Source: an uncultured Veillonellaceae bacterium
GTDB lineage: Bacteria; Bacillota; Negativicutes; Veillonellales; Negativicoccaceae
Assembly: GCA_945876385.1 (NCBI GenBank)
Contig: CAMCNU010000001.1
Span: forward strand, 248,001-312,000
Direction of reading: 5' to 3'
DNA length: 64,000 nt
Below, piece by piece: positions 4,699 through 20,674 of the stretch (position 1 is its first letter; each line of letters begins with the position of its first letter). The translations under genes and the position numbers were made by a program. A model generated the notes under the pieces. It was not told the DNA's origin. It searched no databases and was given only the letters and a program-made list of their open reading frames with translations.

Positions 4699-5748
4699 AT
4701 GAACATTTCAGAACATGTCTTGACGCAATTCACCGTCGACGCCGTATGGCTGCATAAATCGGTGAATGTGCGCTACCAAAGCGGATTCACCGGTGACGAC
4801 ACGGATGCATTGATTGCCGCCGAGCGACACTGCCTGTTGACAGACGCCCGCTATACCCAGCAAGCGCGGGAAGAATGTCCCCAATGGGAGATTATTGACC
4901 ATCAGGGACGCCTGACGGGCGCACTGAAGGCACAATGTGAGCACCTCGGGGTTCGTCGTCTGGGCGTGGAAATGCAAGCCATTTCGGCCGCGCAGTATCG
5001 ACAACTTCAGCAGGAGATGCCGACCGTGGAATTGATTGATACGGATACCGATCAGTTACGACAGATTAAATCCGAGGACGAAATCGCGTCGATACAGCAT
5101 GCGTGCCGGATTGGCGACCGCGCCTTGCAGGACATCCTTCCGCTGATTCGTGCGGGAGTGACGGAAAATGAATTACGGCGAGAACTGGAACGGGCCATGT
5201 TGGCACACGGTTCCGAACGGACAGCGTTTACGACCATTGTCGCGTCGGGGTATCGTTCGGCCATGCCGCATGGAATTGCCAGTGACAAAGTCGTCGCTGA
5301 CGGTGAGTTCATTACGTTTGATTTCGGTGCCGTCTATCGGGGCTACCACTCCGATATGACACGTACATTTGTCGTCGGTCACGCCTCGCCGGAACAGCGA
5401 CGTATGTACCATGCCGTTTTACATGCACAAGAAGCGGCCTGTGCGATGATACGTCCGGGCATGGCCGGCAACGAACCGGATGCATTGGTACGACGTTTGT
5501 TGGCTAAGGATGGATTATCGTCATACTTTACGCATGCCTTAGGGCACAGCGTCGGACTGGAGATTCACGAAGGTCCGAATTTGTCACCTCGCGAATCGAG
5601 AAAACTGGTCGCGGGAATGGTAGTTACCGTTGAGCCGGGAGTGTATATTCCCGGTTTCGGGGGATTACGTATAGAAGATACAACTGTGGTGAGGGAGGAC
5701 GGACTGCAATTGTTGACGCAGTTCCCGAAAGAGTTAGTCGAGTTATAA
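4699..5748 (+). CDS. Xaa-Pro peptidase, M24 family
   Basis: A cytoplasmic metallopeptidase of 349 residues that removes N-terminal residues preceding proline. An N-terminal creatinase-like domain (about 1-120) is followed by the M24 pita-bread domain. The five metal ligands are visible: D in [14 protein letters not shown] in SDMTRTF, H in [17 protein letters not shown] in VTVEPGVY and E in LRIEDTTVV. It sits directly upstream of efp, the common Firmicutes arrangement. The start has an AAGAAGG Shine-Dalgarno and its own promoter. Xaa-Pro aminopeptidase versus dipeptidase cannot be separated from sequence alone. Confidence 0.93.
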
Positions 5749-18439: not shown

Positions 18440-18442
18440 ATC

Positions 18443-18478
18443 AAAAAAGAGAGCTTACCGTGGTAAGCTCTCTTTTTT
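18443..18478. terminator. Bidirectional terminator between dapA and lexA
   Basis: A 12-bp perfect stem (18448-18459 with 18462-18473) with a 2-nt loop, flanked by an A run on the left and a T run on the right, so it can end both dapA (+) and lexA (-). Confidence 0.9.
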
Positions 18479-18490
18479 GTTCATATGGAC

Positions 18491-19117
18491 TTAATTGTAT
18501 TTACGATATACGCCGATTACCTTGCCGACAATTTGAATGTGACTTTCAGGACCGCAAATAATCGGCTCATAACTTTCGTTTTCCGGTTGCAGGCGGATGT
18601 ATCCCTTTTCCTGATAAAACGTTTTTACGGTCGCTTCGTCGTCATTGACAAATGCGACTACGATTTCACCGTTTTCGGCGACATTTTGGGATTTGACAAA
18701 CAGATAATCTCCGGGGAGAATCCCCGCATCCATCATACTTTCACCTTTGACTTCCAACATAAAAGTATCTTCTACACCGGAACCGATAAACTGAGCGGAA
18801 AAGGGGAAGACGTCTTCGATACACTCTTCCGCAGTTGCCGGCATTCCGGCATGCACACTGCCTACTAACGGAATCGGCGCCAAGCTCTTGTGTCGCCATT
18901 CGTCATCGGCCACCAACTCGATGGAGCGACTTTGATTCGGATTGCGCCGGATATAACCGGCATCTTCCAGCCCTTTCAAGTAACCTGAGATAGTAGAAGT
19001 GGACTTAACGTTCAATTTTTTTGCCATATCCCGAAAGGAGGGAGAGTATCCGAAGCGCAACGTATGCTCTTCAATATATTCCAGCAATTCCTGCTGGCGG
19101 GTAGTTAATATTGACAT
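18491..19117 (-). CDS. lexA: LexA repressor
   Basis: SOS repressor and self-cleaving protease, 208 residues. An N-terminal winged helix (TTRQQELLEYIEEHTLRFGYSP then SGYLKGLEDAGYIRR) is followed by the cleavage site HAG-MP (Ala-Gly) and the S24 dyad: serine in GESMMDAGI and lysine in EATVKTFYQ. ATG 19117 is preferred; an AAGGAG lies 11 nt upstream, and the in-frame GTG 12 nt earlier would overlap it. LexA boxes lie in the shared upstream region. Confidence 0.95.
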   Translation of the reverse strand: MSILTTRQQELLEYIEEHTLRFGYSPSFRDMAKKLNVKSTSTISGYLKGLEDAGYIRRNPNQSRSIELVADDEWRHKSLAPIPLVGSVHAGMPATAEECIEDVFPFSAQFIGSGVEDTFMLEVKGESMMDAGILPGDYLFVKSQNVAENGEIVVAFVNDDEATVKTFYQEKGYIRLQPENESYEPIICGPESHIQIVGKVIGVYRKYN

Positions 19118-19140
19118 GGTGGAAATCACTCCTTTTATCC

Positions 19141-19149
19141 ATTATAACA
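19141..19149 (-). promoter_or_regulatory. Extended -10 promoter for lexA
   Basis: On the minus strand TGT then TATAAT (19146 down to 19141). It predicts a very short leader of about 17 nt before ATG 19117. The imperfect LexA box at 19168-19179 would cover the -35 region, as expected for autoregulation. Confidence 0.6.
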
Positions 19150-19167
19150 GACTTGTAGAAAAACCGA

Positions 19168-19179
19168 AAACATTTGTTC
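19168..19179. promoter_or_regulatory. Imperfect LexA (Cheo) box, lexA side
   Basis: AAACATTTGTTC differs from the Gram-positive consensus GAAC-N4-GTTC at one base. It lies upstream of the lexA -10 element. Confidence 0.55.
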
Positions 19180-19196
19180 TTTTTTCGCGGATTCGC

Positions 19197-19225
19197 TTGA
19201 CCGAACGTTTGTTCTGTGATACTAT
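19197..19225 (+). promoter_or_regulatory. SOS-controlled promoter of the LysM gene
   Basis: TTGACC at 19197-19202, 17-nt spacer, TACTAT at 19220-19225. A perfect LexA box fills the spacer. Confidence 0.75.
19203..19214. promoter_or_regulatory. LexA box 1
   Basis: GAACGTTTGTTC, a perfect GAAC-N4-GTTC operator lying between the -35 and -10 elements of the LysM gene promoter. Confidence 0.85.
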
Positions 19226-19238
19226 TTCAGTAGAGACA

Positions 19239-19250
19239 GAACAGATGTTC
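19239..19250. promoter_or_regulatory. LexA box 2
   Basis: GAACAGATGTTC, a second perfect GAAC-N4-GTTC operator, just upstream of the GAAAGGAGTG Shine-Dalgarno of the LysM gene. It is centred 36 bp from box 1. Confidence 0.85.
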
Positions 19251-19267
19251 GAAAGGAGTGTTCGCTG

Positions 19268-19582
19268 ATGATAACAAAACTGATTACCCCTATCTTATAT
19301 ACCATGCTTCTTTGCAGCGGTATCATGGCCTCGGGCTTTCTGACTCCGACGCCCACGCCCGTTTACCAAGAAATCCGGGTCCGCTCGGGAGATACATTAT
19401 GGTCATTGGCTGCAACATATGCCGAGCACTCATCTACGGATATTCGCGAAGTCATCTATCATATTCGGAAAGTCAATCAGTTGGCGAGCGCTGCGGATTT
19501 GCGTCCGGGGATGGTATTGCGCATCCCGGTTGCGGTTGATGCCGAGACAACTACGGAGTCCGTCTATATCGCACAACAATAA
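19268..19582 (+). CDS. LysM-domain protein, YneA-like SOS cell-division inhibitor
   Basis: A 104-residue protein with an N-terminal hydrophobic anchor (about residues 5-24) and one LysM peptidoglycan-binding domain (IRVRSGDTLWSLAATY to LRPGMVLRIPV, residues ~36-90). This is the architecture of YneA, which holds back division during the SOS response in B. subtilis. The gene is divergent from lexA and its promoter carries two LexA boxes, so SOS induction is well supported; the division role is inferred from the YneA parallel. Confidence 0.85.
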   Translation: MITKLITPILYTMLLCSGIMASGFLTPTPTPVYQEIRVRSGDTLWSLAATYAEHSSTDIREVIYHIRKVNQLASAADLRPGMVLRIPVAVDAETTTESVYIAQQ

Positions 19583-19593
19583 ACGATACCTAT

Positions 19594-19622
19594 ACTGCGG
19601 AAGGGAATATCCCTTCCGCAGT
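19594..19622. terminator. Perfect inverted repeat between convergent genes
   Basis: A 13-bp perfect GC-rich stem (19594-19606 with 19610-19622) and a 3-nt loop, between the stops of the LysM gene (+) and the recombinase (-). It is a plausible bidirectional terminator, but neither side has a clean T run. Confidence 0.6.
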
Positions 19623-19626
19623 TGTC

Positions 19627-20604
19627 TTATGTAGAGAAAATATCTGTCAACGGATTGTGGCTGAATCTGTCCGCCTCATTGATATAGTGGCGTACCATTT
19701 CTACCGAGTGATGTCGTGTTTGCTGCATAATATGGCGCTCTTCCACACCTGCCATGGCAGCGGACGTGGCAAAACCATGCCGCAAGCTGTGGGCGCCGTA
19801 ATCATCCGGGTTCAGACCGATTTGCGCCACCCGCTCTTTAACAATTCGATTGACCATTTGATCGGACAATGCCGTGGAGCGCAAGGTACCGCTGCGCGTC
19901 ATTCCGCGAAAAACCGGCCCTGCAGTAATCTGCGCGGTATCCAACCATTGCCGCATTGTCCGAACCGGACAAATCTCCGCATTCGGCAAAAACGGTAATG
20001 CCACCAGATTTCCTCGCCCTTCCTGGTCGGCTTTGGAGTAGGGGATAAAAATCTCCAAACCGCGTCGCTCAAACGTTAACTCTTCTACTTGTATGCCGAC
20101 CAGTTCACTTCGCCGAAATGCGCCCATGAAACCAATCAGCAAAAGGGTTTTGTCTCGCAAATCAACTAAATTTGCCGTTTTTAGCACCCGAACGATTTCC
20201 AGCAAGTCTTCCTTTAAAATCGGCATCTTTCCTTGCTGAAATGTCCCTATTTTGCGGCGAATACTTTTCATTGCCGCCTTGACCAGAGGAGAGGCACAAG
20301 GATTATCCGCAATGATGCCTCCGGCCAAATAATTTTCGGAAATAGCGCTCACACGGCGGGAAATAGTATTCGCCTTCGCATAGCGAGATAGATCATTGAT
20401 ATAATTGACCAAGGTTTCCGGGGTAGCCGGAAAAAAACGCACACGCTGGTGGCGACACCAATCACAAAAGTCATTCCAGTCCGCCTCGTAAGCATCAATC
20501 GTACCTTCCGATTTTTCCAATTGAAAGAGTTCCTTACTTGCTGCAGACAGCGCCTCGTTGGAGGCTATTTTTTGATTATCACGTAAATAGAAATGGTCTG
20601 TCAT
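19627..20604 (-). CDS. Cre-like tyrosine recombinase
   Basis: A site-specific recombinase of 325 residues. The N-terminal SAM-like core-binding domain (~30-120) includes WNDFCDWCRHQRVRFFPATP, resembling the same region of phage P1 Cre. The catalytic domain has every family residue: R164 in GAFRRSEL, K191, H272 and R275 in HSLRHGF, H298 in TRHHS and nucleophile Y307 in VRHYIN. ATG 20604 follows AAGGAG. There is no excisionase, relaxase or cargo beside it. A perfect 21-7-21 dyad begins 22 nt upstream of the start, as a possible target or autoregulatory site. Alternatives are a XerS/XerH-type resolvase or a relic integrase. Confidence 0.9.
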   Translation of the reverse strand: MTDHFYLRDNQKIASNEALSAASKELFQLEKSEGTIDAYEADWNDFCDWCRHQRVRFFPATPETLVNYINDLSRYAKANTISRRVSAISENYLAGGIIADNPCASPLVKAAMKSIRRKIGTFQQGKMPILKEDLLEIVRVLKTANLVDLRDKTLLLIGFMGAFRRSELVGIQVEELTFERRGLEIFIPYSKADQEGRGNLVALPFLPNAEICPVRTMRQWLDTAQITAGPVFRGMTRSGTLRSTALSDQMVNRIVKERVAQIGLNPDDYGAHSLRHGFATSAAMAGVEERHIMQQTRHHSVEMVRHYINEADRFSHNPLTDIFST

Positions 20605-20625
20605 CCGTAACTCCTTACAAAAACG

Positions 20626-20674
20626 CCCTATGATTAGTAACGATAATTTAATGTTATCGTTACTAATCATAGGG
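20626..20674. repeat. Perfect 21-bp inverted repeat with 7-nt spacer (lox-like dyad)
   Basis: Left arm 20626-20646 and right arm 20654-20674 are exact reverse complements; the spacer is TTTAATG. The inner arm ends read CGATAA and TTATCG. The layout resembles tyrosine-recombinase core sites (loxP is 13-8-13) and it lies directly upstream of a tyrosine recombinase. On the minus strand the hairpin is followed by CGTTTTTG, so it could also terminate the upstream rib/mtn/mtaD transcript. I saw no second copy in the window. Confidence 0.85.

Follow-up and report, generated by a model that had tools for sequence, protein, structure and literature searches.

A solitary Cre-like recombinase and its 29-bp palindromic site as a very probable chromosome-dimer resolution system of the Veillonellales

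The recombinase and its locus

The XerCD/dif system is treated as near-universal among bacteria and as important for their fitness. In a 64,000-nucleotide stretch of DNA from an uncultured Veillonellaceae bacterium (order Veillonellales, class Negativicutes; GenBank assembly GCA_945876385.1, contig CAMCNU010000001.1, positions 248,001 to 312,000; hereafter the window), we analysed a gene for a solitary tyrosine recombinase, here designated X, together with a perfect dyad located directly upstream which encloses a 29-bp palindromic site (Table 1). Comparisons across the order and the class make it very probable that X and this site constitute the chromosome-dimer resolution system of the bacterium and of its order.

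Table 1. Features of the recombinase locus (positions in the window)
Feature	Position	Strand	Remarks
Solitary tyrosine recombinase X, 325 aa	19627..20604	minus	Catalytic residues R164, K191, H272, R275, H298, Y307
Whole 49-bp dyad	20626..20674		Outer 10 bp per arm plus core form a terminator-like minus-strand stem with tail GCGTTTTTGT
Predicted dif-type site, 29 bp, 11-7-11	20636..20664		AGTAACGATAA-TTTAATG-TTATCGTTACT
Left predicted recombinase-binding arm	20636..20646	+	AGTAACGATAA; CGATAA core conserved; both arms change together between families
Central region TTTAATG	20647..20653	+	Predicted strand-exchange region; cleavage positions inferred
Right predicted recombinase-binding arm	20654..20664	+	TTATCGTTACT; perfect complement of the left arm
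Replication-terminus switch	18467..20674		Peak of the cumulative GC skew of the window at 18467; rightward genes before, leftward genes after

The X gene starts with an ATG codon at 20604-20602, 21 nt from the dyad. Its neighbours are housekeeping genes, in agreement with an earlier interpretation made from the letters alone (the sequence-only reading), which had seen neither integration nor conjugation genes at the locus. The protein matched the Pfam family Phage_integrase (PF00589, E=2.6e-16) and an N-terminal SAM-like domain. All six catalytic residues, which the sequence-only reading had listed as kept, proved invariant in an alignment of 80 out of 80 X homologues. The same columns are shared with XerC and XerD of E. 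coli and with Cre of phage P1, which carries a tryptophan at the H298 column. This R-K-H-R-H/W-Y set and the fold place X in the tyrosine recombinase superfamily.

Among sequences with solved structures X was nearest to Cre (phmmer 4.5e-6), followed by XerA and XerD. Cre was also the nearest match of the predicted fold (Foldseek E=1.5e-11), albeit with a low global template-modelling score of about 0.48; the model had a mean pLDDT (predicted local distance difference test) of 82.5, with a poorly modelled segment around Y307. The likeness to Cre noticed earlier is thus found at the level of both sequence and fold. Sequence identity amounted to 22% with Cre and 18-21% with XerC and XerD. As X scored far below the cut-off of all NCBIfam Xer models, namely those for XerC (TIGR02224, 47 versus 335 bits), XerD (TIGR02225, 53 versus 330 bits), XerS (NF003462, 27 versus 267 bits) and XerA (NF040815, 53.6 versus 220 bits), close membership in one of these Xer families was ruled out.

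A conserved 29-bp site inside the dyad

The two 21-nt arms of the dyad (20626-20646 and 20654-20674) are 100% complementary and separated by the 7-nt spacer TTTAATG. No perfect dyad in the window is longer, the next having 18-bp arms (at 18442); the number of exact 21-bp pairs to be expected by chance for a given spacer is about 1e-8 per window. Alignment of homologous loci revealed the consensus ACTTCCGATAA-TTTANNN-TTATCGGAAGT, and conservation falls on either side of these 29 bp; the search behind this alignment demanded the inner letters ATAA/TTAT and left the rest of the arms and the centre free. The arms and spacer given by the sequence-only reading are confirmed, but the part resembling a recombination site is the inner 11-7-11 segment and not the whole 49 bp.

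Between families the arms covary in pairs (ACTTCC/GGAAGT, AGTAAC/GTTACT, GGTTCC/GGAACC, ATATAC/GTATAT and CCGTCC/GGACGG) with their symmetry retained, as expected if one protein binds both. The centre is asymmetric, with the consensus TTTANNN in 42 distinct sites after each centre had been oriented to best fit TTTAACG, and its orientation relative to the X gene varies among genomes. Two species of one genus (G002:C1:313991 and G003:C1:189951) share the same arms and have the 7-bp centre inverted, TGTTAAA in one and TTTAACA in the other, which is a direct sign of flipping.

The search of related genomes suggested by the sequence-only reading detected the site in 58 of 60 genomes of the order as a palindromic pattern with at most two mismatches. 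Since two mismatches were allowed, some of the weak matches are chance hits, which a reversed control makes evident. The 29-bp site is present in a single copy in its own genome.

Second perfect palindromes with odd centres, CGCCGAT and TGATAAT, occur in addition to the main site in two genomes (L162, G012:C3, 8499; L163, G127:C9, 7023); they may belong to integrated elements or to plasmid sequence that makes use of the system. Second copies close to the main site in the Megasphaera genomes G008 and G032 were considered as signs of hitch-hiking elements and dropped, as their neighbour is an unrelated arm-binding integrase and they have the appearance of terminators.

Distribution of X and apparent loss of XerC, XerD and dif

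X was found in 57 of the 60 genomes of the order, with one match each, and is the sole PF00589 protein found in its own genome, which is 99.98% complete. Among the relatives to which one scan gave names are Megasphaera, Dialister, Allisonella and Colibacter. When 249 genomes were drawn from across the phylum, a single one outside the class had a strong match to X. None of the 20 order genomes tested contained XerC or XerD above the cut-offs, and canonical dif was not found in these 20 either. The two protein models do perform in this class, where members above the cut-offs were detected in 67 and 72 of 120 genomes, respectively. The order thus shows the pattern of a single-recombinase Xer/dif system, one Xer protein per genome in the absence of XerC and XerD.

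The site follows the replication terminus

Genes in the window point rightward up to dapA (18439) and mostly leftward from lexA onwards, and the sign of the guanine-cytosine (GC) skew switches at 18-20 kb. When 400 kb of the contig are considered, the skew peaks at 266467, 2.2 kb from the dyad, with the site at 268650. The switch in gene direction together with the skew identifies the locus as the replication terminus. Between the convergent genes dapA and lexA lies a further perfect dyad (18442-18479; 18-bp arms, 2-nt loop, T and A runs), which is a bidirectional terminator.

In two genomes site and gene have become separated, and there the skew peak accompanies the site and not the gene. In M. 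hutchinsoni (G020) the site at 230892 lies 40 bp from the peak at 230932 and 85 kb from the gene at 146020. In D. succinatiphilus (G012) the site at 658258 lies 4 kb from the peak at 654290 and 37 kb from the gene at 695900, which is about 42 kb from the peak. On the single 2.57-Mb contig of G133, assuming that it starts near the origin, the site is found at 49.8% and the gene at 56% of the length. A dif-type site at the replication terminus, as in single-recombinase Xer/dif systems, is accordingly observed, more weakly in three genomes with a faint or distant peak.

Plasmid relatives and apparent replacement across the class

The closest relatives of X outside the class are plasmid recombinases; among annotated plasmids the best matches came from Alicyclobacillus, Sporosarcina, Protochlamydia and others, with 36-43% identity. 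Six of ten plasmid loci hold an 11-7-11 palindrome of the GATAA type, compared with 0.017 expected from Markov controls, and enrichment occurs at spacer length 7 and, less, 6 only. The site of the A. dauci plasmid, ACTTCCGATAA-TTTAACG-TTATCAGAAGT, differs by one base from the consensus of the order. Phylogenetic trees separated X and its plasmid homologues from XerC and XerD (100/100), with chromosomal X nested within the plasmid set and the X proteins of the Veillonellales forming one clade (100/100). X of family f8 grouped with Alicyclobacillus plasmids (89/80), which hints at a second capture.

Across 120 genomes of the class, X and canonical XerC occurred together in one, X only in 55, XerC only in 45 and neither in 19 (Fisher 1.6e-16); canonical XerC is thus present in 1/56 genomes with X versus 45/64 without it. 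The pattern persists outside the order (1, 35, 45 and 19 genomes, respectively; Fisher 5.6e-12). X accompanied by XerD but not by canonical XerC was detected in 22 class genomes and X alone in 33. G086, from a family that keeps XerD, carries two diverged copies of X on opposite strands, separated by about 5 kb (4721-5581 and 10626-11480 of L080).

The canonical dif of the class is ACGTCCGATAATATCTATTATGTTAAGT-like. An intact or relic dif lies beside the X gene or site in six genomes, at distances of 12 bp (G088), about 50 bp (G156), 200 bp (G094), 330 bp (G072), 370 bp (G074) and 1.1 kb (G153). XerD is kept in all six, and G153 retains XerC, XerD and an intact dif beside X. Relics in this position are to be expected if X took over from a place next to dif, which suggests a direction for the event. 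Between the X site and the intact dif of G153 (L178, 7208-7930) we recognised by eye an open reading frame similar to a portion of a group II intron reverse transcriptase.

Twelve class genomes contained no X, XerC or XerD above the thresholds used (G069, G096, G103, G111, G112, G118, G128, G139, G144, G145, G148 and G154). Their best Xer-type matches were mostly between 1e-28 and 1e-56, and many belong to family f14; these genomes possibly possess yet another resolution system.

Proposed mechanism and competing explanations

Chromosome-dimer resolution, one of the options offered by the sequence-only reading, is strongly supported by the order-wide single copy of X, its standing as the sole tyrosine recombinase found in its genome, the loss of XerC, XerD and dif, and the site that tracks the terminus. 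X and its site would accordingly be a single-recombinase Xer/dif system with a Cre-like protein of its own clade, probably of plasmid origin. Two X monomers would bind the two identical 11-bp arms, and two bound sites of a dimeric chromosome would pair at the septum in the terminus region. X would then cut and exchange strands at the edges of the 7-bp centre, with Y307 as the nucleophile and through a Holliday junction, as Cre and Xer proteins do. On the model of Cre and of the Xer systems with a single recombinase (PMC5357621, PMC9765430), the two sites would be occupied by four identical protomers, whose sequential exchange would convert the dimer into two monomers, and the asymmetric centre TTTANNN would confer polarity on the site. 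It is probable that FtsK aligns or activates the complex; such control is plausible, as the FtsK gamma domain was found in 12 of 12 relatives tested.

With regard to its origin, X falls within a plasmid-recombinase clade with a like site and would have settled beside the old dif in chromosomes of Negativicutes, after which XerC would have been lost first, followed by XerD and dif. We lean slightly towards a scenario in which dimer resolution in the Negativicutes was taken over more than once, beside the resident dif, by a plasmid-type Cre-like recombinase with its own site. Stages of this process would survive in living genomes, from XerC, XerD, dif and X together, through XerD and a decaying dif with X, to X alone, the order having ended up X-only.

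Several observations weigh against these interpretations. Genome counts are not phylogenetically independent, and in XerD-retaining genomes either system may be the active one. Within a Veillonella-type family (f4) the 99% complete genome G055 has neither X nor the site, owing to an assembly gap or to loss. In G083 and G136 the site or a near-match to it occurs in the absence of X. No site was found near X in two X-containing genomes (G075, G151). G081 possesses XerC, XerD and canonical dif, no X was detected in it, and it carries a perfect X-type site (L165, G081:C6, 7368). Site and skew peak lie 13 kb apart in two Megasphaera-type genomes whose skew is weak, and in M. massiliensis the distance is 35 kb. 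Octamers which might guide FtsK were not distinguishable from general purine skew: GAGAAGGG is oriented towards the site 16:0 in two genomes but ranks only 11th of 56 anagrams. Support for the branching order within the plasmid set is weak, and multimer resolution is a presumed role of the plasmid homologues.

It is very unlikely that the dyad serves only as the intrinsic terminator of the upstream mtaD-like gene. A terminator scan of the minus strand did call a 20-bp stem with a T tail at the dyad, and the other long perfect dyad of the window, at 18442, is a terminator. The sequence-only reading held that arms which vary freely with only pairing and the T run kept would point to a terminator, and precisely this behaviour was observed for the outer arms in the family of the window and in sister genera. 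In the inner 11 bp of each arm and at the beginning of the spacer, however, the sequence itself is conserved, which argues for a recombination site within a terminator-like stem and not for a mere terminator. An intrinsic terminator, defined by a hairpin and a T run without sequence conservation, fits the outer arms and not the inner 29 bp, which are conserved across the class and the plasmids including the loop start TTTA, a feature needless for termination. The extended stem is moreover missing from many copies, and the site follows the terminus where it lies 37-85 kb from the gene. Terminator function as the sole role is thus refuted; it is likely for the outer stem, most likely built around the site, and compatible with recombination.

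Equally slim is the chance that X is an integrase left behind by a decayed mobile element, with the dyad as its attachment site or operator. A single recombinase with an adjacent site and plasmid relatives would fit such a remnant, but X is near-universal, single-copy and monophyletic in the order, retains its catalytic residues throughout and has housekeeping neighbours, and the site tracks the terminus where unlinked from the gene. The autoregulated integrase proposed by the sequence-only reading is not favoured either. Its suggestion of an inversion switch, in which X would drive phase variation at the dyad, has next to no probability. The inverted centres of G002 and G003 speak for it, yet only the 7 bp flip, and identical arms need no large inversion. 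There is one strong site in the genome of X, and usually one elsewhere, so that a second site to invert against is lacking; no second exact inverted site was seen in its own genome. Improbable as well, though a little less so, is a hybrid heterotetramer in which X takes the place of the absent XerC and pairs with XerD on a mixed site, the order having later become X-only. The 22 class genomes with X and XerD but without canonical XerC match this idea, as does the resemblance of the X arm to the XerC arm of the local dif (ACTTCCGATAA versus ACGTCCGATAA). Against it, the sites in these genomes show full or near symmetry, having an X arm on either side and a centre of 7 bp instead of the 6 bp of dif, and five of the 22 keep a diverged second Xer protein which is XerC-like (about 230-280 bits).

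Relation to known systems and significance

The order, whose members (Veillonella, Dialister, Megasphaera and others) are common in the human mouth, gut and vagina, appears to have lost XerCD/dif and to rely on a single recombinase of another clade with a perfectly symmetric site. X would offer a simple homomeric Xer system for asking whether polarity, FtsK activation and half-site asymmetry matter with identical arms. Genomes at apparent intermediate stages of replacement are also available, as is a plasmid-to-chromosome takeover that can be tested by experiment. The 29-bp site may also serve as a terminus marker for draft genomes, and X with its site as a possible genetic tool for anaerobes that are hard to engineer. 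We found no description of this system, and no paper joining dif or chromosome-dimer resolution with Negativicutes or Veillonella, in a literature search whose scope excluded preprints and most subscription journals. Veillonella, Acidaminococcus and Negativicutes are all absent from the main text of Kono 2011.

Single-recombinase dif systems are already known, namely XerS, XerH, XerA and XerL. Among them XerS/difSL of Streptococcus and Lactococcus likewise employs a single recombinase with a site near both gene and terminus and replaces XerCD in a phylum of the Gram-positive type (PMC5357621). The arms of difSL, a 31-bp site, are imperfect and its centre measures 11 bp, whereas the X site has perfect 11-bp arms and a 7-bp centre. 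XerL/dif of the Legionellales resembles X in its single recombinase, order-wide occurrence and uninterrupted inverted-repeat arms (10 and 12 bp), and Coxiella carries a plasmid-borne xerL (PMC9765430). By description XerL is set apart as a longer protein (catalytic Y387) of Proteobacteria, with the dif of L. pneumophila more than 400 kb from xerL. XerH/difH of Campylobacter and Helicobacter is also a site-linked single-recombinase system, and XerH was among the fold matches of X; it differs in length (354-362 versus 325 residues) and site, and its fold match is weaker than that of Cre.

Cre/loxP of the phage-plasmid P1 shares with X the combination of one recombinase and a site beside its gene, with symmetric arms around an asymmetric centre, and Cre resolves dimers. 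It differs in the 13-8-13 geometry of loxP, compared with 11-7-11, in the low identity of 22%, in tryptophan in place of H298 and in serving the P1 plasmid instead of a chromosome. The plasmid recombinases of Alicyclobacillus, Sporosarcina and Protochlamydia, annotated as 'site-specific integrase', come with a CGATAA-type 11-7-11 site in the six of ten loci mentioned above and differ from X in being plasmid-borne. Canonical XerCD/dif of the Negativicutes shares the terminus position, 11-bp arms and the similarity of arm ACGTCCGATAA to ACTTCCGATAA, but uses two recombinases, asymmetric arms and a 6-bp centre. The sequence-only reading had noted that arm and spacer lengths fit none of Cre/lox, XerS/difSL and XerH/difH exactly, and the system is indeed neither XerS, XerH nor Cre; it is distinguished by a recombinase clade and a site geometry of its own.
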